Origin: a virus | IMG/VR virus record: IMGVR_UViG_3300009515_000241 | Location: 1-41,122 of that record | Direction: 5' to 3' (one strand) | DNA length: 41,122 nt | Part shown: piece after piece, positions 1 to 40,882 of the stretch | Layout of the letters: the number at the start of each line of letters is the position of its first letter | How positions within the stretch are numbered: the stretch's first letter is position 1 | Translations under genes and position numbers: made by a program | The notes under the pieces: generated by a model | What the model was told of the DNA's origin: nothing | Database searches by the model: none | What the model saw: only the letters and a program-made list of their open reading frames with translations

Positions 1-1
1 G

Positions 2-338: not shown

Positions 339-1092
339 TCGACACCTGGCCCGTCGCCGTGGCCCGGATGAAGTCGGAATCCGACGGCGGTAGCTCGTCG
401 ATGTCCGAGAACGACCCCGTCCAGCCCGTGAGATCGTCGCCGGTGACCACGACGGCCCGGACACGGGGGTTCAGGAGCTCGGAGAAGTCGACCGGGAAGG
501 TCGCATCCACCGCGAGGAGGACGGCGCTGCTCACCTGGTGGCCGTTCGTGTGGCCGCGGAGGTACCACTCGTCCGGGAGGCCTCCCAACGCTGTGATGTC
601 GCCCGCCGTGAGGACATAGCTCATGATCGGGTTGGCGCGGTCGCCGGCGAAGGCGACCGAGACGGTCCCGCCGCTCTGGTGGTCGACCCGGGCCTGGAGC
701 AGGTGCCACTCGGCGACGGAGAACGCCTGGGCGGAGGTCGCCCGCAGGACGCCGGCCACGTAAAGCGTCACCAGCCCAGTGTTGTCCTGGTAGCTGAGCG
801 AGATCCCCTCGACGCCGGCGAGCCCGGTCCCGAGCCTCACAAGGTCGTTGTTCGTGTTGTTCACGGTCACGAGACTGCGGATCGAGAACTCGTAGATCGT
901 GGTTGGGACGGCCGTGATCACCCCGTCGATCTCGAAGGGGATCCGCAAGATGTCATTGGTGATGGCGGCGGAGTGCGTCGCCCAGGGACCGGGGGGATTG
1001 CTCGTGGTGTAGACGACGGCGCCGGAGACGACCGTCATCCCCTCGAGGGCGGAGGACTGGAGCGCCAGGGGGAGGGCGTGGTGCATGGACAT
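298..1092 (-). CDS. Tail protein, LamG-like, N-terminal part (interrupted at left junction)
   Basis: Starts at ATG 1092 (MSMHH; a second ATG two codons in). About 251 phage-derived residues, ending ...DFIRATATGQVS at position 340; the last residues before the stop at 298 come from foreign DNA. The beta-rich sequence around residues 60-200 (YEFSIRSLV, GISLSYQDNTG, EWHLLQARVDH, WYLRGHTNGHQ) resembles LamG/concanavalin-like folds common in phage tail proteins; this is recognition by eye. The true C-terminus is at the other end of the window (40559-40845), giving about 340 residues after circularisation. Downstream in the tail operon, so likely a virion surface or adsorption protein. Confidence 0.7.
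   Translation of the reverse strand: MSMHHALPLALQSSALEGMTVVSGAVVYTTSNPPGPWATHSAAITNDILRIPFEIDGVITAVPTTIYEFSIRSLVTVNNTNNDLVRLGTGLAGVEGISLSYQDNTGLVTLYVAGVLRATSAQAFSVAEWHLLQARVDHQSGGTVSVAFAGDRANPIMSYVLTAGDITALGGLPDEWYLRGHTNGHQVSSAVLLAVDATFPVDFSELLNPRVRAVVVTGDDLTGWTGSFSDIDELPPSDSDFIRATATGQVSRSSISLNPKRPPR
339..356. repeat. 18-bp terminal direct repeat, left copy
   Basis: The sequence tcgacacctggcccgtcg is repeated exactly at 40828-40845 in the same orientation, and the flanking bases differ on both sides. The two copies lie in the same reading phase of two truncated minus-strand tail-protein frames. The repeat marks the point where the phage circle is opened and where foreign DNA begins on the left. 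Confidence 0.85.
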
Positions 1093-1097
1093 CGGGG

Positions 1098-1523
1098 CTA
1101 CCTCGAGCGCTTGATCGCGTAGACGGTGATGGTCGAGCCGGCGTCCGGAGCGGCGCCGCTGTTCGCCTGGAAGCTCGGGATCATCTCGACCCCGCTTGCG
1201 GGCGTTGTGAGCCGGAACTGGTCGGCCGGGCTCGCCAGCGCCGCGGACTCTGCAAGGTAGGCGGCCTGTGGTGCGGCCCCGGTGGCTCCGTCGACGTCCT
1301 CGACCGTGATCGGGAAGGCCGCGCCGCCGGCGGCGCGCGCATCCGTGAAGCCGACGTGGATCGAGGTCGCGTCCGGGCTCCCGCCCGCGTTCGCGCTGAT
1401 CTCGATGTACCAGTCGACCCAGGCGTCCCGGTCCGAGATCGGGAGCGCCTTCGCCAGGGCGGCCGGGCTCCCGAACGGTGGGATCGGCGTGATCGAGCCG
1501 AGGGCGTAGACGGTGCGTGCCAT
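1098..1523 (-). CDS. Tail-associated protein, unknown
   Basis: 141 residues from ATG 1523, five bases upstream of the LamG-like gene and just after the large tail protein at 1532-3220. The sequence is beta-rich and polar (VDWYIEISANAGG, TSIHVGFTDA, GSTITVYAIKRSR) with no signal peptide, membrane helix or recognised motif. Position among tail-tip genes suggests a small virion component, for example a decoration or tip-accessory protein. No family recognised. Confidence 0.6.
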   Translation of the reverse strand: MARTVYALGSITPIPPFGSPAALAKALPISDRDAWVDWYIEISANAGGSPDATSIHVGFTDARAAGGAAFPITVEDVDGATGAAPQAAYLAESAALASPADQFRLTTPASGVEMIPSFQANSGAAPDAGSTITVYAIKRSR

Positions 1524-1531
1524 GGGTGCTC

Positions 1532-3220
1532 CTACTGCAAGGCGCGGGCGACCCGCGCGGGATCCGTGAGGACGGAGAGGTCGAGAAGGGTCGAGCCGCC
1601 GCCGGCCGTGATCCCCTCGACCAGGGCGACGCGCGCGGTCCAGCCGAGGGCGGCATGGTCGAGGACCAGGACGTCCCCCACCTCGAAGCGGTCCTCCAGG
1701 CGGGCCGCGCCCTCGTAGCTCACGGACCAGTGCGGGAGCGCCAGGGCCTCGGCCCAGGTGTCCAGGGTCCGGAGGGCGCTCGGGACGTGCCATAGGTTCG
1801 CCGAGCTGAGCGACCAGGGGCGGATCCCGGAGCCCGGGACGCCGCGGAGCTCGAGGCGGCGCTGCGAGACGGCGCACCGGAAGGAGCCGAGGATCCGGAA
1901 GTCGCCCGGGTCAGGCTCGGCCGTGAGGACCCGGCGCGTCCGGTAGGCGCCGCCCTGGCGCTCGGGACCGAACTGGATCGTGAGCTCGTTCGCGACCTGG
2001 TCGAAGGCCCGCGTCCTCGGGTTCGAGACGAGCTGGAGATCGCCGCGGTCCACGGAAAGGTAGGCCGTGGCGTCGAGCTCGGTCGCGCCGTAGCGCATGC
2101 GGCGGACGAACAGGCCCCGGCGGCCCTCGACCACGCGCAGCGGCGCCAGCGGGAGGAGCTCGGTCCGGATCCACTCCCAGGCGTTCTCCGGCTCGTTCAC
2201 GACCGTGTCGATCTGCCACGCGTCGAGGTCCTCGCGGGCGGCTTCCATCCTGCCCAGGTCGACCTCGAAGCTCGCGAAGCGCTCGCTCAGGTAGCGGATG
2301 ATCTCGCCCATGCCGCGGACGGGCCCGCTCCTGTCGAGTCGCAGCGCGCCGCCGCCGAACCCGGCGGCCTCGGACCACGCGACGTAGTACGCGCGCCCTG
2401 GGGCCCCCGTGGCGCCCAGGATGGCGCCCAGGGTGCACACCGAGACGGTCCGGCCGAGGAGGTCCGTCGTCGTGACCACGGGTCGCGTGTCCTGGCTCGG
2501 CGCGTCGACGTCGTAGTCGTAGACCCGGACGCTGGACGCGTGGACCTCGCCGCCGGCCAGGAGGAGCCGGCTGTTCGCCGGCGTCGCCAGGTCGAGCTCG
2601 GCGGCCGGCGCCGGCGTCGACGCGGTGATCGTCCCCAGGTTCGGCCAGCTCGCGATCGAGCCGGGGTAGCCGAAGATCAGCGGGTACCAGGCGCCCACGG
2701 ACTTCTCGTCGAGGACCTGCCCTCCCGTGACTGGCCAGGCGTCCTCATCGATCACGGCGGCCGGGTCTACGAGCGGCCTAGAGGCGCGGACCGGGCTCCG
2801 GACGAGCGAGAACACCAGCGGCTCGAGCGGGCCGCCGAAGCTCACGTCCTCCGCTGCGCCCCGGATCGCGACCCTTGAGCGGTCGAGGACGGTCCCGGGG
2901 GTCCACCTGCGGAGCGTCGCGCGGGCGCCCTCGAGCTCCCATCCGGCGGCGATCAGGGCGGCCCAGGTCCCGGCGCCCGTGAGGCTCCCGCCGACGCCCT
3001 CGAGGTCCTCAGCGGCGATCTCGATCGGGGCCTGGAGCTCGGCGGAGTCGGCGTCCCCCTCGGTCAGCGTGATCTCGCCGAGGCCCTCGCGGTACAGGCG
3101 GAGCTCGCCGAAGCTGTCGAGGACCTCGGCGCCGGCCGTCGCGAACAGGGCGAGCCGGCCCCCGACCTCGAGGTCCAGGAGCCAGATCGGCTCCGTGAGG
3201 TCCAGGAGGCCCGCGGCCAT
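1532..3220 (-). CDS. Tail tip/baseplate-like protein
   Basis: 562 residues; ATG at 3220 overlaps the previous stop by one base (TGATG). The N-terminus (LLDLTEPIWLLDLEVGGRL) and many beta-strand stretches, plus a Trp-rich middle (NAWEWIRTELLPLAPLRVVEGRRGLFVRR) and a C-terminal part that closes with RFEVGDVLVLDHAALGWTA and VALVEGITAG, are typical of phage tail-tip or tail-hub proteins that combine a structural ring domain with a gp27-like barrel. Third large gene after the tape measure, the usual place for such proteins. No catalytic motif seen. Assignment rests on context and fold feel, not on a defined motif. Confidence 0.6.
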   Translation of the reverse strand: MAAGLLDLTEPIWLLDLEVGGRLALFATAGAEVLDSFGELRLYREGLGEITLTEGDADSAELQAPIEIAAEDLEGVGGSLTGAGTWAALIAAGWELEGARATLRRWTPGTVLDRSRVAIRGAAEDVSFGGPLEPLVFSLVRSPVRASRPLVDPAAVIDEDAWPVTGGQVLDEKSVGAWYPLIFGYPGSIASWPNLGTITASTPAPAAELDLATPANSRLLLAGGEVHASSVRVYDYDVDAPSQDTRPVVTTTDLLGRTVSVCTLGAILGATGAPGRAYYVAWSEAAGFGGGALRLDRSGPVRGMGEIIRYLSERFASFEVDLGRMEAAREDLDAWQIDTVVNEPENAWEWIRTELLPLAPLRVVEGRRGLFVRRMRYGATELDATAYLSVDRGDLQLVSNPRTRAFDQVANELTIQFGPERQGGAYRTRRVLTAEPDPGDFRILGSFRCAVSQRRLELRGVPGSGIRPWSLSSANLWHVPSALRTLDTWAEALALPHWSVSYEGAARLEDRFEVGDVLVLDHAALGWTARVALVEGITAGGGSTLLDLSVLTDPARVARALQ

Positions 3221-6200
3221 CAGACGAGCTCGCGGAGTTGGATCCCGGCCAGGCGCCCGAACTCGTTCACGCCTTCGTCGCCCAGGACGTGGTCGAAGCG
3301 GGCGGACCCGTCGAGGACCGCGTGCAGGAACAGCGTAGGATCGGTGATCGTGGTCCCGCTCGCGGCCGGGACGCGGGCGACCCCGACCACCGGGAGCTCG
3401 CCGCCCTTGACCTCGGCGAACAGGCCCGCGAGGAGCGTCCACACGTCTTGGTCGGTGACGGCCGGCGGCTTTCCGACGGGGCCGAGGAAGTCCGGCGCCG
3501 GGTTCCCGCGGATCGCGTCGAGCTTCAGGCCGTCCGGCCACGCGAGCGACCAGGTCCGCGCCATGGGGCCGAGCTGGGTCCGGCGGATCGTGCCGAAGCT
3601 GGACACGGCCTCGAGGACGTTCGGGCGGTCCTCGACCGAGTAGCCGCGGGACCACTGCTGGCCGAACACCTGGATCGCGCCGACCCGGACCAGGCCGGCC
3701 TCCGTGTAGTCCTCGGCGACGCCGTCCAGGCCGATCACGGTCCCGGGCCCGCTGGGCGCGTTGAGCCGCACGCGGATCCCGTGGATGAAGTCGGCCGGGA
3801 GCCCGTCGAGCTGGACGACCAGGAGCCCGCTCGGCGCCTGGACGTTGAACGTGGTCCCGAGGACCGTCCCGCTCGGGAACCCTGGCGCGGTGATCACCGG
3901 CGGCGCGACGGTCCCGGGCTCCGCCCAGCGGCCGGACGTGTTTCCGCCGATGCGGTAGCCGGTCAGGCCGGCGTCCACGACGATCCCGCCGGCGAGCTCG
4001 TTCCGATGCCAGAACCGCGAGGCCGTCGCGGTCCCGGTGGCCGGCTGCGCGTGCGGGCCGTGACGGTCGCCGCCCAGGGCGATCCCGACGCGGGCGTCCC
4101 AGGTCCCGACCGCGACCCAGGCCCCGGCGCCTGTGGTGTCGACCTCGACGGTCGCCCGCCCGAAGTTGGACCGGAGGATCAGGACGCCGAGGAGCCAGCT
4201 CGAGCCGATCCGGGTCGGGGTCGGCGCCAGGCTCCAGGACAGGCGCTGGATCCCGCGGGTCGCGCTCCGGTAGGTCGCCGAGGGCGAGGGCGACCGCTCG
4301 GCGAACAGGTTCGCGATCGGGTGGTCGTGGCTCGGCTCGAGCGTGTGGAGCTCGGCGAGGCCGCCCGGCCCGCCGCGGACCTCGAGGAGCGTCCCGAGCT
4401 CGCCGGCCGTCCGCTGCGGAGGGCCTTCGCCGCCGATCCAGCCGAGCGGGTAGGGGAGGACGCCGAACGGCCGCCCCGTCTTGAGCGCCGAGCTCGTCGC
4501 CAGCGCCGGGAGCGTGGTCGCGTTCTCCAGTGTCCCGCTCCTGAAGGAGTGCATCCGCCACTCGGCGGAGCCGGTCGACGCCGCGGCCACGGCGCCCCAG
4601 AACACGCCGCCCGTGGCGATCGGCGCACCGGAGGCCGTGAGCGTCCCGGAGGCCGCGAGCGCCCACGGGTTGTAGGCCCTGGCCCCGGCGCGCCACAGGA
4701 CGTAGAACGCGCCGTCGCTGCTGATCTCCCAGGCGATCTGGAAGGGCGAGGAGAAGGGGTTCCCGGCGCCGTTCGGCTCGATCTGGGCGAGCGTGCCCCC
4801 GCTAACGATGTCGATCACCCGGAAACCGGACGTCGTGAAGTTGAACCCGAGCCGGTGATCCACGACGCCGTTGGACAGGCGGACCCGGAGCCCGATGTGG
4901 GTCGCCGTGAACAGGCCGCCCGAGACCACCACGACGTCGAACTGGCCCGCGCCCTCGAGGTCGGTCCCGGTCACGATGTGGTAGCGGAGGCGCTGGGCGG
5001 CCGTGACCAGGGCGAGGACGCCCGGAGCCTGGAGCGTCGCGGTCCCGCCGGTCGTCGTGAGGATCCAGCCCATGTTGTTCGGGAGCTCGATCGCGTGCCA
5101 GGTGTTCCCGGTGGTCGGCGACAGGGCGGCCCGGTCGGCCCCGAACCCGAACCGGGCCTCCGGCTCGGCGAAGGGGGGCGAGCCGGCCGAGACCAGGCCC
5201 CGGTTGACGGCCTTCGCCCATCCGCCCAGGGTCGCCACGTGGAGGCTCAGGTCGGTCGTCGCGACCGCGGCTGTGTGGCTGTGGAACAGGAAGATCCCGC
5301 CGTCCGAGGCTGCGCACGCGTACCGCTGATCCGCCCGGAGGAGGCCGCTCGAGCTCCCATGCTCAAGCGGGTTGAACCGGAAGGCCTCCCAGGTGTCGCC
5401 GAGGTCGCTCGAGCGCCAGACGTAGAGCCCGAACGGGGTCGTGGTCGTCCTCGAGCCGAACGCCCAGATCGTCCCGTCCTGCTCGGCGCACGCGCCGGCG
5501 CCGCCCAGGGCGAACGCGCTGTCGATGTTCACGGCCGCAGCGCCGCCGATGCTCTCGAAGGGCGAGCCGATGCGGCGGAACGTGGGCTGCAGCGTGATCA
5601 GGCCTCGGTAGACGACACCGATCGATCCATCGGGAAGGGCGACGAGAGAGGGATCACGGCCGATCCCGGCGATCGTCGCGACGAGCTCGAAGGTCATCCC
5701 GAGGTCGCGGCTCACGTACTGGCGCCACGTCGTGGGCGTGACGGCGTCCGCCTCGACCAGGGCGACGAGCTCGCCGACCACGACGGCCGAGCGGCTCTCG
5801 GCCCCGGTCGGGTTCTCGCCCAGGCCGGTAGGCGCGCTGTAGTCCGTCCAGGTCGCGCCCTCGTCGTCGCTGTACTGGCTCTCTCCGTTGTCGTCGTAGA
5901 GGACCAGGCGCCGCGACGGGAGGACGATCAGGCACGGCGGCCCGGAGAACCCGAACAGGGTCACGACGCCGGAGGTCCAGTCCGGCGTGCTCCGGTAGTT
6001 GTGCGAGACGCTGATCGAGCTGGTCGAGGCCGTCCAGGCGACCACCACCCGCTGGGACCACGGCAGGACCACTGCGTCGTGTGCGGTGTGGTCCAGGGTC
6101 GTCGTGAACGCGATCGTCTCCCAGTGGTGGAGCCAGCTCGGCGCGTTCCACCCGAGCCAGTCAAAGTCCGTCGTCTCGGCCGTGTCCCGGTACAGGAGGC

Positions 6201-6456: not shown

Positions 6457-6459
6457 CGG

Positions 6460-8793: not shown

Positions 8794-8796
8794 GGG

Positions 8797-17358: not shown

Positions 17359-18807
17359 CTACCCGAGGTGGGCGACCTGGAGCCCGGGGGATGGGTCGGT
17401 TCGGATCCAGCGCTCGATCGGGTAGCGGCCGGCGTCTCCTACGTCTTTCAGAGGGTCCCGCGAGTCGCCGGCGAACGTCTCACAGAAGGCCCTGAACTGC
17501 GTACACCGCTCGTGGACCAGGAGGCCTGGAGCTCGCTCGTCGCCGACCCTCGAGCCGCAAAGGCCGTTGATCTTCCGGAGGCCGTGGAACACGGACCCGT
17601 GGAACTTGCGCGGCGTCTCGATCGGCGCCGTCTGTTCCACCCGGAGGCCCTCGAGGCGGGCGAGCTGGAGCTGGAGGTCCCGGTTGGACTTCCCGATCAG
17701 GAACCGATTCTCGCCGGTGCTCCGGTCGCCGATCCAGCCGTCTACGGACCGGTAGACCAGGCCCCGCTGGCGGAGCATGGCGAGGATCTCCGCGGCGTCC
17801 TGGGCCGGCGTCGTGAAGCCGTCCGAGATCCGCTCGTCCAGGATCCAGACCCGGGGGTCGAGGCCGAGCCGGTTCCCGAATGCCTCGAGGACGGCGGCCT
17901 GCTTCCCGGCGCTGGCTCCGTGGTCGACGCCGAGGGCGACGAAGGCGTCCCGCGGGATCGAGTCGAGCGAGAAGCGGGCGACGTTCTCCGGCGTGTACAG
18001 CTTGAGCCAGCGCCCGGTGACCACCGGCTCCCAGGCGCCCGAGACGCGCATCGCCCGCTCGACCTCGAGCCAGGTCGCCACCTCCTCGTCGATCTGGGCC
18101 TGGGAGTACATCGGGAACGGACTCCGCCCCGTCGGCGAGCTCGGGTCCTCCGGCCACGCGTTCGCCTCGCTCAGGCCGTGGTTCCATTCGGCGACCACGC
18201 CGGCCTCGACCAGGTCCCGGAGCCACTGGAGCGGAGGACTGTCCGGCGTCGGCGTGAAGCACATTCGGAACGTGCCGCGGGTCGACAGGATCCGGGGTTT
18301 GAGCTCGCCATACATGGACTCCGTCGGCGGCTCGTCGCACACGATGAAGTGATAGGCGCCGCCGGCCACGCGCTGGCTCCCGGCCTTGTAGGTCGCGAAC
18401 TGGATCAGGCTGCCCTTGCCTGGGCCTGCCACGAACCGGATCCGGGGCGGCTTGCCGGTGATCCCGCGGCCTTCGTCGTAGCCGTTGCGCGGGTCGATCT
18501 CGTCCTTCGGAAGCAGCGCCCAGAGGGCCGCCATCAGCGGCTCCATCTGCTCGTAGGAGTACGACACGCACAGGATCCGGATGGGCGGCCTGTGGGTCCT
18601 CAGGTAGGGGTGCGAGCCGCGGGCCCGGTGCACGATCTCCCAGGCCGCGGCGAAGGACTTCCCGAGCCGGTTCCCGTCGCGCCACAGTGTGAGCCGCCGC
18701 GGGTCCGAGACGAACAGGCGCTGGGGCGTCGTGAGGCGGACGGACTCGAGGCCCTTCCGCCGGTTCCGCCGGGCCGCCACGTTCGCCCATGCCAGCGGAG
18801 CCGGCAA
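17359..18807 (-). CDS. Terminase large subunit
   Basis: 482 residues if started at TTG 18807, one codon after the small-subunit stop in the same frame; a GTG nine codons further in is an alternative. ATPase domain: Walker A-like GNRLGKS at residues 45-51 and Walker B FIVCDEPP with D158-E159, followed by a coupling motif region (FTPTPDSPPLQWL). The nuclease domain begins near residue 290 with ALGVDHG and continues to IDRS-like GWIGDRSTGENR. It docks on the portal, cuts concatemers and pumps DNA into the procapsid. Deviant Walker A is usual in terminases. Confidence 0.9.
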   Translation of the reverse strand: MPAPLAWANVAARRNRRKGLESVRLTTPQRLFVSDPRRLTLWRDGNRLGKSFAAAWEIVHRARGSHPYLRTHRPPIRILCVSYSYEQMEPLMAALWALLPKDEIDPRNGYDEGRGITGKPPRIRFVAGPGKGSLIQFATYKAGSQRVAGGAYHFIVCDEPPTESMYGELKPRILSTRGTFRMCFTPTPDSPPLQWLRDLVEAGVVAEWNHGLSEANAWPEDPSSPTGRSPFPMYSQAQIDEEVATWLEVERAMRVSGAWEPVVTGRWLKLYTPENVARFSLDSIPRDAFVALGVDHGASAGKQAAVLEAFGNRLGLDPRVWILDERISDGFTTPAQDAAEILAMLRQRGLVYRSVDGWIGDRSTGENRFLIGKSNRDLQLQLARLEGLRVEQTAPIETPRKFHGSVFHGLRKINGLCGSRVGDERAPGLLVHERCTQFRAFCETFAGDSRDPLKDVGDAGRYPIERWIRTDPSPGLQVAHLG

Positions 18808-18810: not shown

Positions 18811-19482
18811 TCAGGATCCCCGGCCGCCCTCGACTACGCCGAGGAGCCGGAGCCCCTTCCGCTCCTCGTAGGTCCGGATCGCCAGCTCGAGGAGGGCGTC
18901 CGGCCACTCCCGGAGCGCCAGGCCGAGCTCGGCGGCGAAGGCCTCGGACTCCATGTCGTAGAGGTCCTGGGCGTCGTCGCCCGCCTGGAGCGCGACCGCG
19001 AGCTCCTGGGCGAGGTCCCGCGCGAGCCGCTGGCCGGCGAAGTAGGCCTGGAAGGACCCGGACCGCAGCGCGGCCCGGTTCGCCTCGTGGACCTCGCGGA
19101 TCTGTCGGCGGAGGCGCTGGGCCGGCTTCTCGTCCTCGAGCTCGTCCGCGACGCGCTCCCGCGCCGAGCTCGCCGAGCCGCTCCGGTTGTAGCCGTGGCG
19201 GCGCTCGAGGAGCCAGGCCGCGGCCTTCCAGTCCCCCTCCTTCGAGGCGCCGGCGATCCGGGTCATGTGGAGCGCGGCGCCCTGGGCCTCGGCCTCTTTC
19301 AGCGCCTCCCAGAGCTCCCGGAACTGGCCCCGCTTCGCCTTCCGGCCGGTCGCGAGCCATCGGGCCAGGGTCGAGCGCCCGACGCCGGCGTAGTCCGCCT
19401 GGAGCTCCCGGGTCAGGCCCAGGCGCGCGGCCTGGACCAGGCGGGCGCGACGCTCCGGCGTGAGCTTCGAGGGCCTACCCAT
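18811..19482 (-). CDS. Terminase small subunit-like DNA-binding protein
   Basis: 223 residues from ATG 19482 (MGRPSKLTPERRARLVQAARLG). The N-terminal 60 residues form a helix-turn-helix in the style of terminase small subunits (LTRELQADYAGVGRSTLARW), followed by a long helical region (QRLRRQIREVHEANRAAL) and a C-terminal acidic helix bundle. Directly precedes the large subunit in the same frame. It would recognise packaging initiation sites. Longer than many small subunits (about 150-180 residues). Confidence 0.75.
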   Translation of the reverse strand: MGRPSKLTPERRARLVQAARLGLTRELQADYAGVGRSTLARWLATGRKAKRGQFRELWEALKEAEAQGAALHMTRIAGASKEGDWKAAAWLLERRHGYNRSGSASSARERVADELEDEKPAQRLRRQIREVHEANRAALRSGSFQAYFAGQRLARDLAQELAVALQAGDDAQDLYDMESEAFAAELGLALREWPDALLELAIRTYEERKGLRLLGVVEGGRGS

Positions 19483-20758
19483 CGGCGGGCCCCAGGGCCC
19501 CCGCTCCGGGATCGACGTCGAGGTCCTCGGCGAGCCGGGTCCACCGGCGGCGGATGACGTCCGCCCACGCGGGATCGATCTCCATCATGCGGCACGGTCG
19601 GTCCTCGAGCTGGGCGCACACCGCGAGGGTCGTCCCGCTCCCGCCGAACAGGTCCACGACGAGCTCGCCCGGCTCCGTCAGGAGCTCGACGCACCGGCTC
19701 ACCAGCTCGGCCGGCTTCTGGGCGTTGTGCTCCCGCTCGTCGCCTGCGACCCGGGAGTACTCGCCGAGGTCGTTCGAGGCGTAGACGGGCCGGATCCCGG
19801 GGCGCGCCTTGTCCGTCATGGTGTGGGCCGTCGGCGCCTTCGTCCAGTAGCCGATCAGCTCGTAGGAGTTGCCGAAGCTCGAGCCGAGGCCGGCGCCGGA
19901 CTTCCGCCACACCAGGAGGTTCCGCGGGTCCAGGTTGGTAGACCGGGCCACCTCCCACCACGAGGGCCAGGACCGCCAGTCGCAGCACACCAGCGCGGCG
20001 CCGGCGAGCTCGAGGGAGAGCTCGGCGGCCTGAAGGACCTGGCGGAACATGGGGCGGACGATCCGGTCGTCCGTGATCGTGGAGCTCGTCCCGGTCGAGG
20101 AGCCGAAGATCGCGAACGGCGGATCCGTGAACACCAGCCGAGCCTTGCCGACCTCGTCGCCCAGGAGCTCGCGGACCTGGTCGAGGTCCGTCGAGTCGCC
20201 GACCAGGAGCCGATGGGGGCCGAGCTCGTAGAGCTGGCCCGGCTTCGAGTCCGGGTCCGCCTTGAGCTCCGGCGCCTTCGCGGTCCCGGTCAGGCTGCCC
20301 CACCGGCCGCCCTGGCCCAGGAGCTTCGCCATGGCCTCGCGGGTCCAGCCCAGGCCCTCGAGGTCGACCTCCACCTCGGCGAGCTCGGCGACCTCCTTCC
20401 GAAGCGCCTCCGTGTCCCAGCTCGCGAGCGCCCCCAGGCCGTTGTCGGCGAGCCGGTAGGCTCGGAGGTCCTCGTCGGACATCCCCTCGACCAGGACGAC
20501 ACGGACCAGGGCGGCGCCCTGCTCCAGCGCACCCTTCCACCTGGTGTGTCCCGCGGCGATCGCGCGGTCCTCGGCCCGCGCCACGATCGGCGCGAGGAAG
20601 CCGAAGCGCTCGATGGACTTCGCGACCGGGAGGACGGCCCTCGCGTTCTTGCGAGGGTTCGGCGAGGCCTCGAGCTCGGCGAGCTCGGAGGGGTCCATCC
20701 AGATCGCCGCGGCGTCGCCGGGTCGCACTTCTGCGGACTTGTGCGGACCTGTGCTCAC
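19475..20758 (-). CDS. ParB-domain / DNA methyltransferase fusion
   Basis: 427 residues from GTG 20758 (GTGA overlap). Residues about 20-130 are a ParB/Srx-like domain with the signature AGHTRWKGA (GHTR at 70-73). The C-terminal part is a DNA amino-methyltransferase: catalytic DPPF at 212-215, and the SAM-binding motif DLFGGSGTT near 385, i.e. the order IV then I of beta-class enzymes. It methylates adenine-N6 or cytosine-N4 in phage DNA. Such ParB-MTase fusions are known in phages; the ParB part may guide or license binding. No restriction partner is encoded. Confidence 0.85.
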   Translation of the reverse strand: MSTGPHKSAEVRPGDAAAIWMDPSELAELEASPNPRKNARAVLPVAKSIERFGFLAPIVARAEDRAIAAGHTRWKGALEQGAALVRVVLVEGMSDEDLRAYRLADNGLGALASWDTEALRKEVAELAEVEVDLEGLGWTREAMAKLLGQGGRWGSLTGTAKAPELKADPDSKPGQLYELGPHRLLVGDSTDLDQVRELLGDEVGKARLVFTDPPFAIFGSSTGTSSTITDDRIVRPMFRQVLQAAELSLELAGAALVCCDWRSWPSWWEVARSTNLDPRNLLVWRKSGAGLGSSFGNSYELIGYWTKAPTAHTMTDKARPGIRPVYASNDLGEYSRVAGDEREHNAQKPAELVSRCVELLTEPGELVVDLFGGSGTTLAVCAQLEDRPCRMMEIDPAWADVIRRRWTRLAEDLDVDPGAGALGPADG

Positions 20759-21426
20759 GGGACCTCCGGGAGGGCCGAGCTCGGCTCGAGCTCGAGCTGG
20801 TTCGGGTTGGCGCCCTTCCGCGGCGTCCGCCGGGCGTCCGGGTCGAGGCACCACGACAGCCAGGCGAGCTCCGTCGGGCCGCGGTAGCCGCGGCGCCAGA
20901 CGCACCAGGCGTAGCTCGCCGAGTCGGTCCCGCCGCCCGTGAAGCTGGGCCGCTCCACCACGAGGTGGACCCGCTCGGGACGGTGCGCCAGCCACAGGGG
21001 CGAGCGGCCGCGCCCGACCAGGAACCCGACCCGGAGGAGGAAGGCGACCAGGCCGCCGGGCTTGACCAGGCGTAGCGCCCGGCGGACGAAGGCCTCGGCG
21101 TCGCCGTACGGCGGATTGCCCACGATCGCGTCGTAGCCGTGATCCCTGGGCCAGCACAGGAAGTCGGCGTGGCTGACCTGGACCCCGCGAGTCCCCTTGA
21201 GCTCCTCGGCCGCCTCGCTGTCGATGTCGAGCGCGAACACGAGGCCCTTCGTCGACCACAGGCCGGCGATCAGAGGCTCGACGAAGGCGCCGCCGCCGGC
21301 GGCCGGCTCGAGGACCACGGCGCCCGGCGGGAGGTCCAGGAGTCCGACGAGCTCGGCGGCGAGCTCGGGAGGGGTGTCGTAGCGGTCGAGCTCGGCGCGC
21401 TCCGCTCCGCGGCCTGTGGCGCTCAT
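20755..21426 (-). CDS. DNA adenine-N6 methyltransferase (NPPY)
   Basis: 223 residues from ATG 21426 (ATGA overlap with the gene before). SAM-binding motif EPAAGGG at 40-46, acidic FALDIDS at 64-70, and catalytic NPPY at 104-107 in IVGNPPYGDA. Motif I precedes motif IV, as in gamma-class N6-adenine enzymes. It lacks a distinct target-recognition domain and has no nuclease neighbour, so it is an orphan methylase, probably protecting phage DNA from host restriction. Coupled by a four-base overlap to the ParB-fusion methylase. Confidence 0.85.
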   Translation of the reverse strand: MSATGRGAERAELDRYDTPPELAAELVGLLDLPPGAVVLEPAAGGGAFVEPLIAGLWSTKGLVFALDIDSEAAEELKGTRGVQVSHADFLCWPRDHGYDAIVGNPPYGDAEAFVRRALRLVKPGGLVAFLLRVGFLVGRGRSPLWLAHRPERVHLVVERPSFTGGGTDSASYAWCVWRRGYRGPTELAWLSWCLDPDARRTPRKGANPNQLELEPSSALPEVP

Positions 21427-22989: not shown

Positions 22990-23525
22990 GACGCGCCGCC
23001 CTTGAGCCGGTGGAGCTCGCGGCCGCGCTGGGCGGCGAGGGCCTCGAGGTCGGCCACGCGGGCCTGGAGCCTGCCGAGCTCCTCGATCGTGGCCGTCGCG
23101 CCCTCGATGGTTGCGGCGCCGTCCTCGAGGGCGCGCATCGCCGAGGCGAGCTCGGCCTCCAGGCCGTCCGCGTAGTCGATCCATGCGCCCTTGCTGGCGG
23201 ACTTCTGCGGGCGCGGGGTCATGTGGCTGTCGCTGGGTTCCATCGGGTCCTCCTGGGTCAGGAGCTCCCGGAGCCAGGGGCGCTCCCGGAGCTCGGTGAT
23301 CGTCATGCTGGGCAGCCACGGCGGCGGCTCCGCCCGGAGCTGGTCGAGCTGGGCCCGGCGCGTCGTCGCGACCGCGAGGAGCTCGGCGGGCGCCGCGCCG
23401 GCGGCGAGGAGCGCGAGGGCGTCCCGCGCCGTGGCCACGACCATGTCGGCGGCCCGCGCGTCCTGTCGAGCTCGCCAGGCGCGGAGCCGGCGGCGCTCGA
23501 GCTCGGTCCGGCGCTCGGCCCTCAC
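22986..23525 (-). CDS. Coiled-coil protein with WIDYAD module; possible internal second start
   Basis: 179 residues from GTG 23525 (GTGA overlap). N-terminal half is basic and helical (RRTELERRRLRAWRARQDA); the C-terminal half repeats the WI-YADxLExEL module of the next gene. An in-frame ATG at 23243 (MEPSDSHM) has an excellent AGGAGG site five bases away, so a separate 85-residue product corresponding to the paralogue may also be made. Either two fused genes or one gene with two products. Confidence 0.55.
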   Translation of the reverse strand: MRAERRTELERRRLRAWRARQDARAADMVVATARDALALLAAGAAPAELLAVATTRRAQLDQLRAEPPPWLPSMTITELRERPWLRELLTQEDPMEPSDSHMTPRPQKSASKGAWIDYADGLEAELASAMRALEDGAATIEGATATIEELGRLQARVADLEALAAQRGRELHRLKGGAS

Positions 23526-33827: not shown

Positions 33828-34038
33828 TCCCACGCCGATCGTCCTCGACGGCGTCCGCTACCAGGTGACCTGGCGCTACGAGGCGAACGTGCCGGAGGGC
33901 GAGCCCGGCGGCCTGGAGCTCGTGCTCGAGATCGACCAGGTCGAGCCGCCGCCGGCGGGCCGGGACACGGAGCGCGCGATCGAGCGGGAGCTGGAGCGGC
34001 TCGCGCTGGACGAGCTCGACGCGGAGGCGGCCCGATGA
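33817..34038 (+). CDS. Small acidic protein
   Basis: 73 residues from ATG 33817 after AGGGAAGG. Strand-rich first half (IVLDGVRYQVTWRYEANV, GLELVLEIDQVEPP) and a charged C-terminal helix (TERAIERELERLALDELD). Overlaps the upstream gene by 11 bases and the next by ATGA. Function unknown. Confidence 0.5.
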   Translation: MPADPTPIVLDGVRYQVTWRYEANVPEGEPGGLELVLEIDQVEPPPAGRDTERAIERELERLALDELDAEAAR

Positions 34039-34319: not shown

Positions 34320-34329
34320 GGGAGGACGC

Positions 34330-34590
34330 ATGGGCGAGGGATGGAAGTCCACAGGCTGGAGCCTCGAGGGCCAGGACCGGGAGACCGCCTCCCGGGTGCG
34401 CCGCCTCGAGGGGTACCAGCTCGAGGTGTGGCGGGCGGCGGAGGGCGTCTGGAACTGGGATGCGAGCCTCTACGAGGCGACCGGGATCGCGGTCGCCCGC
34501 GGCGTCGAGCGCAGCGAGCGGAAGGCGAAGGCAGCGGCGAACCGGTGGGCCCGCGGCCACGCGCGGCCGCCGCTCGGGCGGGCCTCGTGA
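34330..34590 (+). CDS. Small hypothetical protein
   Basis: 86 residues from ATG 34330, after GGGGAGGAC. Trp/Glu-rich (WKSTGWSLEGQDRE, YQLEVWRAAEGVWNWD) with a basic C-terminus (RSERKAKAAANRWARGHARP). Predicted helical. Adjoins the exonuclease gene by GTGA, so it may belong to the recombination module. Confidence 0.5.
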   Translation: MGEGWKSTGWSLEGQDRETASRVRRLEGYQLEVWRAAEGVWNWDASLYEATGIAVARGVERSERKAKAAANRWARGHARPPLGRAS

Positions 34591-35552
34591 CCCCCGCCGA
34601 GCGGGCGACCTGGCTCGAGGAGCGGCGGAAGGGCCTCGGCGGCTCGGACGTGGCCGCGGTCCTCGGCCTCTCCCCCTGGGCGACGCCCTTCGACGTCTGG
34701 GTCGACAAGGTCGACCCGCTCCCGGACGAGGACTCGAGCGTCAAGCGCCGCGGGCGGCTCCTGGAGCGCGCGGTCGGCGAATGGGCCGCCGAGGAGCTCG
34801 AGCGGATCCTGGAGCCGGCCGCCCACCTCGTCCACCCGGTCCACACCTGGGCCCGGGGGACGCCGGACTTCTGGCTCACGGACCCGAACGCGTACCCCTT
34901 CGCCCAGGCCCGGGACCGGCTCGGCCTCGAGTGCAAGACGGCCCGCTACATGGACGGATGGGGCGAGCCCGGCGCCGTCCTCGAGGTCCCGCCCCACTAC
35001 CGCGTCCAGGCCCTCTGGTACCTGGCGATCAGCGAGGCCCCGGCCTGGGTCGTCGCCGTGTTCGGGACCACGGAGGAGCGCTGGGAGCTCCTGGAGCTCG
35101 ACCGCGCGACCGAGGCCCCCCTCCTGGAGCGCCTCCTCGAGGTCGCCGGGTCGTGGTGGGAGCGCCACGTCGTGGGCGGCGACCCTCCCGAGCTCGACCT
35201 GTCCCGCGGCGCCTCGAGGTGGCTCCAGCGTCGACACCCGACCGGCGGCGAGCTCCGCGACGCGGTCGGCGGCGAGCTCGAGCTCCTGGAGCGCTACCGC
35301 GAGGCGAAGGAGCTCGAGCGGGTCGCGGTCGCCGAGCGGAAGGCCCTCGAGGTCCGCCTCAAGGCGGCGATCGGCGACGCCGGCGGCCTCCGCTCCGAGC
35401 TCGGCTCGGTCCGCTGGAGCCGCTACGACGCCAGGCGGCTCGAGGGGAAGCGGCTCCGGAAGGAGCGGCCAGACCTGGTCGAGGTCCTCGACGCCTACAG
35501 CCCACCCAAGCCGACAGGGCGCCTCACGGCGCGCTGGAAGGAGAATCCGTGA
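34587..35552 (+). CDS. YqaJ-type phage recombination exonuclease
   Basis: 321 residues from GTG 34587 (GTGA overlap). Lambda-exonuclease/YqaJ fold: GLGGSDVAAVLGLSPW at about 16-31, RGRLLE (E60), TPDFW (D94), LECKT (E115, K117) and VPPHYRVQALWYL, the QxxxY-like motif. These acidic and Lys residues bind metal and cut the 5' strand. It makes 3' overhangs for the RecT partner encoded two genes later. Confidence 0.85.
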   Translation: MTPAERATWLEERRKGLGGSDVAAVLGLSPWATPFDVWVDKVDPLPDEDSSVKRRGRLLERAVGEWAAEELERILEPAAHLVHPVHTWARGTPDFWLTDPNAYPFAQARDRLGLECKTARYMDGWGEPGAVLEVPPHYRVQALWYLAISEAPAWVVAVFGTTEERWELLELDRATEAPLLERLLEVAGSWWERHVVGGDPPELDLSRGASRWLQRRHPTGGELRDAVGGELELLERYREAKELERVAVAERKALEVRLKAAIGDAGGLRSELGSVRWSRYDARRLEGKRLRKERPDLVEVLDAYSPPKPTGRLTARWKENP

Positions 35553-35920: not shown

Positions 35921-35927
35921 CCAGCCG

Positions 35928-37130
35928 ATGACTACCGAACAGACCGCCCTGGTCAAGCGCGGGAAGGCCCGCCTGCGGGGCCTCCTGGACCAGATGGGCG
36001 CGCAGATCGCCGAGGTCCTCCCGCGCCACCTCACACCCGAGCGGATGGCCAAGCTCGTCCTGGTCGAGGCCTCCCGCAACCCCGACCTGTACCGGTGCGT
36101 ACAGGAGGACCCGGCGAGCGTCGCCGGCTGCCTCATGCTTGCCTCGGAGCTCGGCCTCGAGCCGAGCTCGCCGCTGGGCCACTTCTGGCTGATCCCGCGC
36201 CGCGAGAAGCGGGATCCGAAGGACAAGAGCCGGAACCCGGAGCGTGTCTGGCGGTGTACGGCGATCATCGGGTACAAGGGCTTCGCCGAGCTCGCCCGCC
36301 GGTCCCCCGACGTGGCGAGGCTCAACGCCGGCGTGGTCTACGCCGAGGAGCTCGAGGGCCGGCCGCCGGCCTTCGAATGGAACGTGGAGCCGCCGGCGAT
36401 CACGCACCGCGGGAGGGCCGTCCAGGACCGCGGCGACAGGGCGCTGCGCTTCGCCTACGCGGTCGCTGAGCTCGTAGACGGCCAGCGCTACCAGGCCGTC
36501 CTGGACGCGGCCGAGGTGGACAAGCGGCGCCAGCGCGCCGGGACCCAGATGGTCTGGAAGTCCGACACCGCGGCGATGTGGCGCAAGACGGCGATCCGGG
36601 CCCTCCTGGGCGGCGGCCTGGTCCCTCTGTCCGCCGAGCTCGTCCGCGCAGTGAGCCACGAACGCGCCCAGGAGGTGGAACCCGTCGTGGTCGAGGACGC
36701 CGATGTGGTCGAGCCGGCGCAGCGCCAGACCCGGCGATCCGACCCGGTCCGGGCGGCCCTCGGGATGGACGAGGACCCGGAGGAGGCCGAGGAAGTCCAG
36801 CTGGAGAAGCCGCCAGCGAAGCGGAAGCGCACCCGGGAGGCGAAGGCGAAGGCGGAGGCGAAGGCGGAGGCGAAGGAGCCGGCGGCCGAGGCCCAGGCGG
36901 CCGCCGATCCCGACGCCGAGCGGACGGCGCTCCTCGCCGTGATCCTGGACTTCGAAGGAGAGCTCCCGACAAAGGACGTCGCCGAGGCGGCGAAGGCCGC
37001 CGGCGTCGTGGACCCGGAGGGCGCCGACCTGTTCTCGGGAGGGGTCGAGGAGGCGCCGACCGCGAAGCTCGTCGCGTACAAGGCCGCGCTCCAGGCCGCG
37101 CACGAGAAGGCCTCCGGCGGTGCCTCGTGA
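35928..37130 (+). CDS. RecT-family single-strand annealing protein
   Basis: 400 residues from ATG 35928. RecT core over about residues 20-235: PRHLTPERMAKLVLVEASRN, SVAGCLMLASELGLEPSSPL, HFWLIPRREKR, ACIIGYKG-type CTAIIGYKGFAELARRS, AGVVYAEEL and WKSDTAAMWRKTAIRALLGG, all hallmarks of RecT/Redbeta. It anneals complementary single strands for phage recombination. A long acidic/Lys-Ala linker (EAKAKAEAKAEAKE, from tandem DNA) precedes an extra C-terminal helical domain (AVILDFEGELPTKDVAEAAK), longer than usual RecT (about 270). Confidence 0.9.
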   Translation: MTTEQTALVKRGKARLRGLLDQMGAQIAEVLPRHLTPERMAKLVLVEASRNPDLYRCVQEDPASVAGCLMLASELGLEPSSPLGHFWLIPRREKRDPKDKSRNPERVWRCTAIIGYKGFAELARRSPDVARLNAGVVYAEELEGRPPAFEWNVEPPAITHRGRAVQDRGDRALRFAYAVAELVDGQRYQAVLDAAEVDKRRQRAGTQMVWKSDTAAMWRKTAIRALLGGGLVPLSAELVRAVSHERAQEVEPVVVEDADVVEPAQRQTRRSDPVRAALGMDEDPEEAEEVQLEKPPAKRKRTREAKAKAEAKAEAKEPAAEAQAAADPDAERTALLAVILDFEGELPTKDVAEAAKAAGVVDPEGADLFSGGVEEAPTAKLVAYKAALQAAHEKASGGAS

Positions 37131-37573: not shown

Positions 37574-37827
37574 GCGGGTACGCCGCGAGCGTGATCGCCG
37601 GGCCGCTCAAGGCCGGCCAGATGGACCCGGACCGGACCTGGTACGCGCGCGGCGACCACGTCGTCGTCTCCTCGATCTGGCTGACGAACGAGCTCCCGGG
37701 CTCGCTCGTCGTGGTCGGGATGGACCGCCAGGGCCTCGAGCGCCTCGAGGCCGTCCTCAAGGCCGCAGGCTACGGGGTCGAGCTCTGGCCGGAGCGGGCG
37801 CCGGAGCCGGCCCAGGGCGACCAGTGA
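37570..37827 (+). CDS. Small hypothetical protein
   Basis: 85 residues from GTG 37570 (GTGA overlap). Strand-rich (DRTWYARGDHVVVSSIWL, GSLVVVGMDRQG) with a helix (LERLEAVLKAAGYGVELW), suggesting an alpha/beta fold. Function unknown. Confidence 0.5.
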   Translation: MSGYAASVIAGPLKAGQMDPDRTWYARGDHVVVSSIWLTNELPGSLVVVGMDRQGLERLEAVLKAAGYGVELWPERAPEPAQGDQ

Positions 37828-38081
37828 GCCGCTGCGCGACCCTTGGCTGCTCTCGCCTCCTCGCGCGGCCGGGCGCTCACGCGTGCGCGCCGTGCGAGCG
37901 GGCCGAGATCGCCGAGCTCCGGGCGGGCGCGGTCGGCGGGAGCCGGGACCGGAGCGCCGCGGCCCGGGACGCGCGGGCCGCTTCCGCCCACCTCGAAGTC
38001 CCTCCGGAGCGCCGCGACGTCGAGGACTGGAAGCGCCTCGGCTTCGAGCTCGTAGAGGTCCCCTGGAAGGGCCCCCGATGA
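37824..38081 (+). CDS. Small zinc-finger protein
   Basis: 85 residues from GTG 37824 (GTGA overlap). Begins SRCATLGCSRLLARPGAHAC, then APCERAEIAEL: a C-x4-C...H-x-C-x2-C zinc site within the first 25 residues. The rest is basic and helical, ending in a short Trp-containing tail. Possible nucleic-acid or host-target binder. Confidence 0.55.
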   Translation: MSRCATLGCSRLLARPGAHACAPCERAEIAELRAGAVGGSRDRSAAARDARAASAHLEVPPERRDVEDWKRLGFELVEVPWKGPR

Positions 38082-38176
38082 CGCACGATGAAACGCCGAG
38101 AATCGTCCGGAATCTGGAAACGGGGTTTTGGCCTCACAGGGGCCTCCTGGAGCCGCTGCGAATCTCCGAGGGGTAG
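38078..38176 (+). CDS. Possible 32-residue peptide
   Basis: ATG 38078 overlaps the preceding stop (ATGA) and reads MTHDETPRIVRNLETGFW then 14 residues to a stop. Unlike the neighbours it lies in a lower-GC stretch, so third positions are less G/C. Real only if the overlap is functional; may be part of a leader. Confidence 0.3.
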   Translation: MTHDETPRIVRNLETGFWPHRGLLEPLRISEG

Positions 38177-38335
38177 AGGTCGGGTCCAGATTGCGACGCC
38201 TGGACGGGCCCCTACGATTCGGCTGTGGCCCATGTCGGCAAGCCGAATCGCGTCGGGTCTGCAGCCGAGAGTGGAGCTTCCAAGGTCGACGAATCCAGAG
38301 AACCGTGTCCGAACAGACGAGAAGGAGGCTTGCCC
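38177..38335. promoter_or_regulatory. Lower-GC leader with promoter and operator
   Basis: 159 bases of clearly lower GC than the rest, with no ORF. Holds a sigma70-like promoter TTGCGA (38191-38196), 16-base spacer, TACGAT (38213-38218), and a 10-bp inverted repeat. Possible independent regulatory leader or origin; no iteron-like repeats seen. Confidence 0.45.
38215..38250. promoter_or_regulatory. Inverted repeat (10-bp arms) over -10
   Basis: cgattcggct (38215-38224) and agccgaatcg (38241-38250) are perfect inverted arms around a 16-base loop. The left arm overlaps the -10 hexamer of the candidate promoter, as expected for a repressor operator. It could alternatively form a 5' leader hairpin or act as a stem of a terminator without T run. 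Confidence 0.5.
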
Positions 38336-38704
38336 GTGGAGAACCCGAAAACAGTCATCCCGAGGCTTTCGAGCGAGTCCGTCGCCTGGCTCCGCGCCCA
38401 CTCCGAGGCCTTCACTCCGGAGGCCTTCGAGCTGGTCGAGGAGCTCGACCGGCTCGAGGTGGCGCCGGACGACCCGCGCCGGCTTCACCAGGTCCTCGGC
38501 GACGCGCGCTCGGCGCTGTGGTCCGCGAGCCCCGGCGCCGGGGTCCGGCGGACGGCGGCCCTGTTCGACGCGTCGCTCGCGATCTCCGGCTGGGCGGACG
38601 CGTTCGCCCGCGGCGCGACGCTCTCCCAGAAGCTCGCCGCGGTCCTCCGGGCCTGGGCGCTCGCCCAGCTCGCCGAGGCGAGAGGAGCCGACCCGGCGGA
38701 CTAG
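38336..38704 (+). CDS. Hypothetical helical protein with own promoter
   Basis: 122 residues from GTG 38336, with AAGGAGG seven bases upstream. Helical (VAWLRAHSEAFTPEAFELVE, AALFDASLAISGWADAF, AVLRAWALAQLAEARG). It is the last gene of the rightward arm and is separated from it by a lower-GC leader. Function unknown. Separate control suggests expression at a different time. Confidence 0.6.
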   Translation: MENPKTVIPRLSSESVAWLRAHSEAFTPEAFELVEELDRLEVAPDDPRRLHQVLGDARSALWSASPGAGVRRTAALFDASLAISGWADAFARGATLSQKLAAVLRAWALAQLAEARGADPAD

Positions 38705-38708
38705 GACC

Positions 38709-38743
38709 GGGCCGGCTCCAGGGTGGGCCGGAGGACCCGGCCC
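38709..38743. terminator. GC hairpin between convergent operons
   Basis: gggccgg (38709-38715) and ccggccc (38737-38743) form a 7-bp stem with a 21-base loop in the 48-base gap between convergent genes. Possible bidirectional terminator; no T run on either side. Confidence 0.3.
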
Positions 38744-38752
38744 AGCGCGGAG

Positions 38753-39130
38753 CTACGGCGCCGGAGCTGTGGACAGGGGCGCCGGAGCTGGGGCCACGAC
38801 AGCGACAGGAGCCGGGAGCCCGGAGTCCTTCGCCTCGAGCTCCTGGGCGACGAGCTCGACCACCTCCGCGGCCACGGCCGGCTCGGCGGCCTTGAGCGCC
38901 TCGAGGAAGCTCCGCGTGGCCTGGGCGAGGGCGTCGACCGGTTCCGCCTGGGCCTGTGGCGGCCCCTGGGGCGCCGCCGTCTCCAGGACGGCCTCGAGGG
39001 CGGCCGGAGGCGCCGGCGGCTCCTGGGCGGGCGCTGGCGGCGCGGGAGGTGGGGCCTCGGCCGGCTCGGCCCAGGCCAGTAGGGGGAGGGCGAGGGCGAG
39101 GGCGAGGGCGAGGAGCGGCGGGCGGCGCAT
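38753..39130 (-). CDS. Secreted Ala/Pro-rich protein
   Basis: 125 residues from ATG 39130 with AGGAGG. N-terminal signal peptide: MRRPPLLALALALALPLLAWA, with an AWA|E cleavage site near residue 21. The mature part is Pro/Ala-rich (PPPAPPAPAQEPPAPPAALE), then a helix (ALAQATRSFLEALKAAEPAV) and a Pro/Ala end. Next to a membrane coiled-coil gene, so it could be an envelope or lysis component. No lipobox. Confidence 0.5.
   Translation of the reverse strand: MRRPPLLALALALALPLLAWAEPAEAPPPAPPAPAQEPPAPPAALEAVLETAAPQGPPQAQAEPVDALAQATRSFLEALKAAEPAVAAEVVELVAQELEAKDSGLPAPVAVVAPAPAPLSTAPAP
39086..39113. repeat. 6-bp tandem repeat in signal peptide
   Basis: Hexamer gagggc in tandem (about four copies), encoding the Leu-Ala repeat of the signal peptide of the 38753 gene. 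Copy-number change would keep the frame but alter hydrophobic length. Confidence 0.7.
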
Positions 39131-39143
39131 GGGACCTCCTGGG

Positions 39144-39548
39144 TCAACGGGGGCGGGCGGCCTCCTCGAGGATCCGGATCGAGGTCCGGACGTCGAGCTC
39201 GACCTGGCGGAAGCGGTCGTCCAGCTCCTCGAGGTCCGCCTCGCATGCCTCGACGCGGCGGAGGAGCTCGGCGCGGCGGCGGGCGTCCTCCTCGGCGTGG
39301 TCCTCGAGGTCCTCGGCGACCTCGCCGGCGTCGCCGCGGCCGAGCGTGAGCTGGCCCAGGGTCCCAGCGGTCCCGGTCCCGCCGAGGGCGAGGAGGAGGA
39401 GCATGGTCCACGGGTTGGACGGGAGCTCGAGCGACGGGAGGGCGAGGGTCGTCCGCCTCGAGCCGAGCCCGGGGGTCCGCCGGTGCGACCCGGACGTCCT
39501 CGAGCCCGCTCGGCGCTCCGCCGGGTCTGTGGTGTCGTCCTGGCTCAC
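39144..39548 (-). CDS. Membrane coiled-coil protein, spanin/holin candidate
   Basis: 134 residues from GTG 39548 (GTGA overlap). An N-terminal basic region, one hydrophobic segment at about 45-66 (NPWTMLLLLALGGTGTAG), then an acidic coiled coil (AEDLEDHAEEDARRRAELL, LEELDDRFRQVELDV). An N-terminal anchor plus a periplasmic coiled coil resembles inner-membrane spanins; a holin is less likely with one helix and long tail. Next gene encodes a secreted protein. Confidence 0.45.
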   Translation of the reverse strand: MSQDDTTDPAERRAGSRTSGSHRRTPGLGSRRTTLALPSLELPSNPWTMLLLLALGGTGTAGTLGQLTLGRGDAGEVAEDLEDHAEEDARRRAELLRRVEACEADLEELDDRFRQVELDVRTSIRILEEAARPR

Positions 39549-39847
39549 GGGCCGGGATCCACAGCGGGCGCGAGCTCGGCTCCGGCCTCGAGTGCGCGGA
39601 GCAGTGCGCGGGCCAGCGCCTCGACCTCGGCCTGGACTCCGAACGCCGCGGCGTCGACGGAGGCCTTCGTCACGTCCGCCTCGAGCTTGACGAAGGAGCC
39701 GCCGATCACGGTCCCGCGGACGTAGGTCGCCGAGATCGTCGGGCGGTCCCCGTCGAGGCCCTCGAGCTGGATCGTCAGGGCGCGGGCCTCCGGGGCGGTC
39801 CCGGAGATCGGGTCAGGCGTGGCGAACGTGTGAACCTGTGCGGCCAT
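39545..39847 (-). CDS. Small hypothetical protein
   Basis: 100 residues from ATG 39847 with AGGAGG. Beta-rich first part (ALTIQLEGLDGDRPTISATY, GSFVKLEADVTK) and helical C-terminus (EVEALARALLRALEAGAEL). Perhaps a small virion or lysis accessory protein; not recognised. Confidence 0.5.
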   Translation of the reverse strand: MAAQVHTFATPDPISGTAPEARALTIQLEGLDGDRPTISATYVRGTVIGGSFVKLEADVTKASVDAAAFGVQAEVEALARALLRALEAGAELAPAVDPGP

Positions 39848-39871
39848 GGGGCCTCCTGGAGCTGGGGTATC

Positions 39872-40246
39872 GTGGCCGCGGAGGTGGTCGTGGCCGATGT
39901 CATCGCGGCGGAGGTGGTCTGGGAGGAGGCGGAGGTCCTGCTGGAGGACCTGGTCGCCGAGGGCCTGGACGAGGACGCGGCGGCGCTGGCCGTCGCTCGG
40001 TTCCTGGACGCGGTGCTCCCGCTGGACGCCCTGATCCCGGGCCCGCTGGGCGAGCTCGCCGAGGCCGCGGACGGCCCGATCCTGGCGAGGGTCGTCCAGG
40101 CGCTGCTCGCCCTGTTCCGGTCGGACCCGGACCGGAAGGCAGAGCGCCGAGCTCGGCGGACGGCGCGGAAGGCCGAGCGCGAGGCAAAGCGCGAGGCGCG
40201 GCGGGCCGAGCGCCGGGCGCAGCGCGAGGGCCACTCCGAGCGGTAG
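39872..40246 (+). CDS. Lone plus-strand gene with Arg-rich tail
   Basis: 124 residues from GTG 39872, weak upstream GGGG. Acidic Val/Ala/Glu-rich helices (EVVWEEAEVLLEDLVAEGL, AALAVARFLDAVLPLDALIP), a hydrophobic segment (GPILARVVQALLALF) and a highly basic C-terminal helix (ERRARRTARKAEREAKREAR). On the opposite strand from its neighbours. A charge-polarised helical protein of unknown role, maybe membrane-active or DNA/RNA-binding. Confidence 0.55.
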   Translation: MAAEVVVADVIAAEVVWEEAEVLLEDLVAEGLDEDAAALAVARFLDAVLPLDALIPGPLGELAEAADGPILARVVQALLALFRSDPDRKAERRARRTARKAEREAKREARRAERRAQREGHSER

Positions 40247-40256
40247 GCCCGCGGCC

Positions 40257-40559
40257 TCACAAGTCGCCCCGGTCGCGGAACGGCGGGATCGCCATGCCTG
40301 CGAAGCTCCGGCCCTCCTGGAGCGCGAGCCCGGCGAAGGTCGGGCCGAACCCGGCCGCCGGCGGAGCGTCGCCCTCGAGGACGCCGAGGACGAGGACCGG
40401 GATCCGGACCTCGGCGTCCGCCTCGACCAGGCCCAGCGCGACGGCGGGAATCCTGGTCTCAGCGTCCGCCTCGATGAGGCCCAGGGCGACGGCCGGAAGG
40501 CGCGTCTCGGCGTCCGCCTCGAGGACGCCGAGAGGTACAGCTGTGAGGTCGGTAGGCAT
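40257..40559 (-). CDS. 16-residue tandem repeat protein
   Basis: 100 residues from ATG 40559, which overlaps the tail-protein stop by one base. Residues 6-69 are four tandem 16-residue units with consensus P-A-V-A-L-G-L-I/V-E-A-D-A-E-T-R-I. Regular alternation of hydrophobic and acidic/Thr positions suggests stacked beta-arches or short strands. C-terminus ends GMAIPPFRDRGDL. Directly follows the tail LamG-like gene in the circle, so a virion protein is plausible. Confidence 0.6.
   Translation of the reverse strand: MPTDLTAVPLGVLEADAETRLPAVALGLIEADAETRIPAVALGLVEADAEVRIPVLVLGVLEGDAPPAAGFGPTFAGLALQEGRSFAGMAIPPFRDRGDL
40353..40544 (-). repeat. Four 48-bp in-frame tandem repeats
   Basis: Four diverged copies of a 48-bp unit encoding the 16-residue repeats; e.g. 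ctcggcgtccgcctcga recurs on the plus strand. Copies 2 and 3 are closest, the fourth the most divergent. Confidence 0.7.
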
Positions 40560-40882
40560 CAGGCGATGCTCTCCACGCCCCAGGTGTGGGCGTTGTAGCC
40601 GCCGGCGTCAGCCGGCGGGCCCCAGGCTCCGCCGTCGCGCCGGGTCGCCATGCGCCCGAACACGTAGCCGTCGCCGGGCGCGCTCTGGGTCGCGTTGACG
40701 GCGTTCGTGGCCGCCTCGCGCTGCAGGAACCGGAGCTGGGTCCCGGCCGTGGCGTCGCCGCGGAGACACCGGCCGTACATCATGACTCCGCCGACCAGGT
40801 CGGCGGTGCTCGCCGGGACACTGAACGTCGACACCTGGCCCGTCGGCACCAGGCCCGTCGACGACCCGACCGCCCGTACCAT
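40559..40882 (-). CDS. Tail protein, LamG-like, C-terminal part
   Basis: Reads 107 residues from ATG 40882, but that start lies in foreign sequence; the phage-derived part begins at the 18-bp repeat (TGQVS). The 89 residues after it (TFSVPASTADLVGGVMMYGR...HTWGVESIA) continue the N-terminal part at 339-1092. Together they form one tail protein. This half resembles C-terminal domains that follow LamG-like domains in phage tail proteins (recalled, not searched). Confidence 0.7.
   Translation of the reverse strand: MVRAVGSSTGLVPTGQVSTFSVPASTADLVGGVMMYGRCLRGDATAGTQLRFLQREAATNAVNATQSAPGDGYVFGRMATRRDGGAWGPPADAGGYNAHTWGVESIA
40828..40845. repeat. 18-bp terminal direct repeat, right copy
   Basis: Same 18 bases as 339-356, same orientation. 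Marks the right end of the phage circle. Confidence 0.85.

Follow-up and report, generated by a model that had tools for sequence, protein, structure and literature searches.

The window, a 41,122-nucleotide stretch of viral DNA (IMG/VR record IMGVR_UViG_3300009515_000241), comprises a phage unit bounded by two copies of an 18-mer, short pieces of foreign DNA outside each copy, and a tail gene cut in two at these copies. The features bordering the two ends are the following:

1 to 338, minus strand: non-phage left flank, 52% GC, with an open frame for a Pro/Glu/Lys-rich protein (GC3 49%)
339 to 356, no strand assigned: left copy of the 18-bp direct repeat (TCGACACCTGGCCCGTCG)
357 to 1092, minus strand: N-terminal (5') part of the split tail gene, with its start codon (ATG) at 1092-1090, covering residues 1-245 together with those encoded by the core
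357 to 40845, no strand assigned: one full phage genome unit, 40,489 bp, 74% GC
40559 to 40845, minus strand: C-terminal (3') part of the split tail gene
40828 to 40845, no strand assigned: right copy of the 18-bp direct repeat (TCGACACCTGGCCCGTCG)
40846 to 41122, plus strand: non-phage right flank (Acidimicrobiia/Actinomycetota), intergenic DNA followed by the start of an alpha/beta-hydrolase-type gene (ATG 40905)

The 18-mer is identical at both places and stands in the same reading phase, and exact sequence comparison confirms the coordinates, the phase and the peptide given in the preliminary description. Since the bordering bases are unlike on each side (C at 338 against G at 40827, C at 357 against G at 40846), the repeat is exactly 18 bp long. 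Closure on it yields a 40,489-bp circle and a single unbroken minus-strand ORF of 340 amino acids. The copies do not coincide with the contig ends, 338 and 277 foreign bases being located outside them.

By itself, the repeat is only moderately surprising and proves little for a circle, since exact repeats of this length are no rarity in the present 74% GC sequence. The phage sequence has strongly patterned codons, around a dozen distinct exact repeats of 18 bp or longer occur in the window, and an exact 18-mer is common to 98 out of 18,578 randomly drawn pairs of 700-bp phage stretches (0.5%). What makes the repeat significant is its coincidence with a GC step from 52% to 74% on the left, the onset of non-phage DNA on the right, and a join that keeps the reading frame and restores a known phage protein family.

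A near-copy of the core (TCGGCACCAGGCCCGTCG, two mismatches) is found at 40843-40860, overlapping the right core by three bases, so that the right junction resembles two 15-bp tandem units. The window holds four matches to the core with at most three mismatches, against 0.4 expected. A search for the core in viral contigs gave one match, internal to the sequence of another contig and read as chance.

Gene content of the phage unit

Profile searches and gene calls define the following phage genes:

6460 to 8793, minus strand: tape measure protein (PHROG 8462, E 5.3e-13)
17359 to 18780, minus strand: terminase large subunit, TerL (PHROG 2, E 1.2e-11)
18811 to 19482, minus strand: terminase small subunit, TerS (PHROG 4102, E 1.2e-17)
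34587 to 35552, plus strand: RecE/YqaJ-type exonuclease
35928 to 37130, plus strand: RecT annealing protein
38753 to 40559, minus strand: genes g59 to g56 (gene calls), which come after the tail gene once the circle is closed and form the end of the late operon

The packaging and tail hallmarks TerL, TerS and tape measure protein are each present once according to PHROGs, while the portal and capsid genes, for which no profile match was obtained, are putative and assigned by position only. The unit also encodes a ParB-methyltransferase protein, a second methyltransferase, RusA, and a helix-turn-helix (Cro/CI-like) regulator. Taken together, these genes form one coherent phage unit. After closure, the late genes can be followed on the minus strand from TerS (19482) through the tape measure gene to 1092, across the junction, and on to 38753 without a strand switch. 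Further minus-strand tail genes are located between the tape measure gene and the split gene, the latter being the last but a few of the late operon. The window thus holds one full 40,489-bp unit whose late operon is continuous through the junction, in agreement with the earlier proposal of a complete phage with a circular map. The term "circle" designates here the genome map and not necessarily the virion DNA, as permuted, cos and terminally repeated genomes look alike in this respect.

Relatives of this phage are remote. In IMG/VR, nothing close was found to the joined tail protein, TerL, the putative portal or RecE, the only relatives being distant ones of RecE. No TerL match was found in 397 Actinomycetota genomes, and TerL and RecT have only distant relatives among deposited phages.

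Three further observations concern the gene content. The ParB-like domain is fused to a DNA methyltransferase (19475-20698) and adjoins the second methyltransferase (20755-21426), both just upstream of the terminase genes. Inside g59, three 48-bp tandem units (40365-40541) encode repeats of the type EADAETRIPAVALGL. A tRNA-Gly (gcc) predicted on the plus strand at 23042-23132, within a minus-strand coding frame, is probably a false positive.

The split tail gene and its joined protein

In the linear contig, the 5' part of the tail gene passes out of frame into the left foreign flank and meets a stop at 298, and the sole upstream start available to the 3' part (40882) is in foreign DNA. Both ORFs are cut off exactly at the 18-bp repeat. 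The joined protein starts with the ATG at 1092, ends at 40559, and reads ...FIRATATGQVS/TFSVPAST...GVESIA, the slash marking the join.

Searched directly, the joined protein displays no match to Pfam or PHROGs at the usual thresholds, and only weak matches by tblastn. Its C-terminal sequence, however, resembles a common phage tail domain, and a consensus of this domain type matched 67 phage records, from which 13 stretches were taken. A profile was then built from deposited sequences only, comprising 15 intact phage tail-module proteins, one of which (from Sphingomonas phage Kharn) has the domain internally and not at its end. Against this profile, the joined protein scores 30.9 bits over residues 105-309 (E 8.6e-10 with a target set of only about 60 sequences), and it aligns in register and without gaps across the junction (residues 245-255). 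Without joining, the truncated ORFs of the contig score 13.2 bits for the left one and 7.1 (about 5-7) for the right one. None of 4000 control joins attained 30.9 bits, the best being 23.1 bits for the left half fused to 2000 pieces of other phage proteins and 28.7 bits for the left half fused to 2000 shuffles of the right half. Positions common to the relatives are found on either side of the join, with WTG...DE before it and VSTF over it, and the complete relatives are mostly 329-360 residues long, matching the size of the joined protein. The search of the joined protein against phage proteins, put forward earlier as a check, therefore succeeds at the level of the 15-protein profile, and the uninterrupted tail protein of about 340 residues that had been announced is borne out.

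The two half-genes are hence one gene. By its profile match, the joined protein is a tail-module protein with the shared C-terminal domain and a LamG-like N-terminal part, "LamG-like" being a reading of the sequence and not a profile match. Together, the profile match of the joined protein, which is the decisive support, and the late operon running through the junction argue that the circle is real.

These data also bear on a repeat arisen by chance, in which case the two ORFs would be separate genes and the phage would extend past the window. Such repeats are frequent in this genome, at the rate given above for random 700-bp pairs. However, the DNA outside both copies is not phage DNA, the repeat is precisely where each ORF breaks off, and only the joined protein gives a convincing full-length family match. 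A chance repeat appears strongly disfavoured by the profile test, and we consider it extremely improbable.

The foreign flanks and the origin of the breaks

The right flank is chromosomal. Relatives of its gene share 63-76% protein identity in Acidimicrobiia and other Actinomycetota, and its nearest DNA relative is 81% identical. The left flank gave no confident match in E. coli, phages, plasmids, IMG/VR, Pfam or Actinomycetota; a single 30% match, containing a stop, is not a confident relative. GC3 amounts to 49% in the only long open frame of the left flank and to 97% in the right flank (bases 40905-41120). Since these values are found within 620 bases, the flanks are probably not from one chromosome, and they probably derive from two different organisms. 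The preliminary description held that the visible ends are not the true ends of the phage, which stands; they are not, however, just an arbitrary cut in the phage, since foreign DNA, which that description overlooked, lies past both repeats.

The most probable explanation, in which we have good confidence, is that the contig represents a complete phage with a circular map, cut open within the tail gene, with an 18-bp end overlap and chimeric bacterial extensions. The metagenomic contig would contain exactly one 40,489-bp unit of an uncharacterised high-GC tailed phage, the circular map reflecting circular replicative DNA or circularly permuted or concatemeric DNA. Assembly would have opened the circle at a weakly supported spot inside the 340-residue tail gene, leaving phage ends that overlap by just 18 bp, too little to close the circle or to have it recognised as closed. 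Each end would then have been extended by a short chimeric bacterial piece, 338 bp on the left and 277 bp on the right, apparently from two organisms. We infer, more than observe, that the flanks are chimeras which arose during library preparation or in the assembly, and the same applies to the reason for both breaks sharing the same 18 bp. The latter point is the main weakness of this explanation: two unrelated chimeric breaks, if independent, would not be expected to hit one and the same 18-bp stretch of a 40-kb circle, and this is not fully explained.

An integrated prophage would account directly for both breaks at one place. The 18 bp would be the att core of attL and attR, the flanks host chromosome, and attP would reside in the tail gene, which integration splits and excision restores. 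Phage DNA enclosed by identical direct repeats, beyond which bacterial DNA begins, is what a prophage classically looks like, the GC of the chromosomal right flank, like that of some Acidimicrobiia, fits the phage, and the Cro/CI-like regulator is also in line with it. Nevertheless, six-frame scanning of the whole window yielded no tyrosine or serine integrase (PF00589 or PF00239, E <= 10), though a very diverged enzyme is possible, and none was found among the other scanned ORFs; the core does not adjoin any integrase gene. Furthermore, the mismatch in flank composition speaks against a single chromosome, and in the relatives of the right flank, the nearest only 81% identical, the core region is not conserved and no core is present upstream of the hydrolase gene. 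A prophage is therefore held to be unlikely. A more specific version, a temperate phage with attP in its tail gene, a lysogeny switch by gene disruption, and an integrase too diverged to recognise, is very unlikely; if true, integration would inactivate the tail gene and excision would rebuild it.

The shared breakpoint may also be considered in terms of cohesive ends. The cohesive ends of phage P2 are 19 nt long, and cos sites normally adjoin terminase genes. If the virion DNA were linear, with 5' cohesive ends of 18 nt that were filled in at library preparation and ligated to unrelated fragments, the repeat would be a cos overhang; judging from known cos phages, this would account at once for the breakpoint shared by both ends, the duplicated 18 bp and the two unrelated flanks. 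The repeat is, however, inside a tail gene, with about 18 kb between it and the TerS gene, the wrong place for cos, leaving this possibility a slim chance.

The circular-mapping phage with chimeric ends is an ordinary assembly result with ordinary biology, chiefly useful for record correction. It provides the complete circular-mapping genome of a phage without a close relative found here, and it reveals that the ends of the public record are wrong, with roughly 600 bases of bacterial origin. Such ends could lead to the phage being wrongly assigned to an Acidimicrobiia host or wrongly called a prophage, and the right-flank gene should not serve for assigning a host to the phage.

Comparison with known systems

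CheckV recognises a direct terminal repeat when at least 20 bp are repeated at the start and end of a contig (PMC8116208). The repeat being 18 bp long and inside the contig, this genome would not be recognised as closed, in keeping with the source record being classed as linear. As in the circular or DTR-closed viral contigs of CheckV and IMG/VR, a direct repeat marks the two ends of the phage unit and closes the map; in contrast to them, the repeat is below 20 bp and internal, with 338 and 277 foreign bases outside it. With integrase-type prophages bounded by attL and attR, the window shares direct repeats around the phage unit and bacterial DNA on both sides, but it differs by the lack of a detected integrase, the differing flank compositions, and the fact that no attB was recovered.

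The closest comparison for the tail gene is with intact tail-module proteins of 330-360 residues from Brevundimonas phage vB_BsubS-Delta (DELTA_31, DELTA_32), Strzyga, Polewnik, Erythrobacter phage XM05 (XM05_66), and Salmonella phage SAP012 (ORF40). Identity in the C-terminal domain is only about 13-29%, the surrounding gene order is not kept, and these proteins are each encoded by a single unbroken gene in the deposited records, whereas the gene here is split in the contig. Nonetheless, the joined protein resembles them in overall length and in a C-terminal domain that stays in register over the junction (WTGSFSDIDE...DFI...VSTF...GVES), and several of these relatives adjoin tape-measure or minor tail genes, as is the case here.
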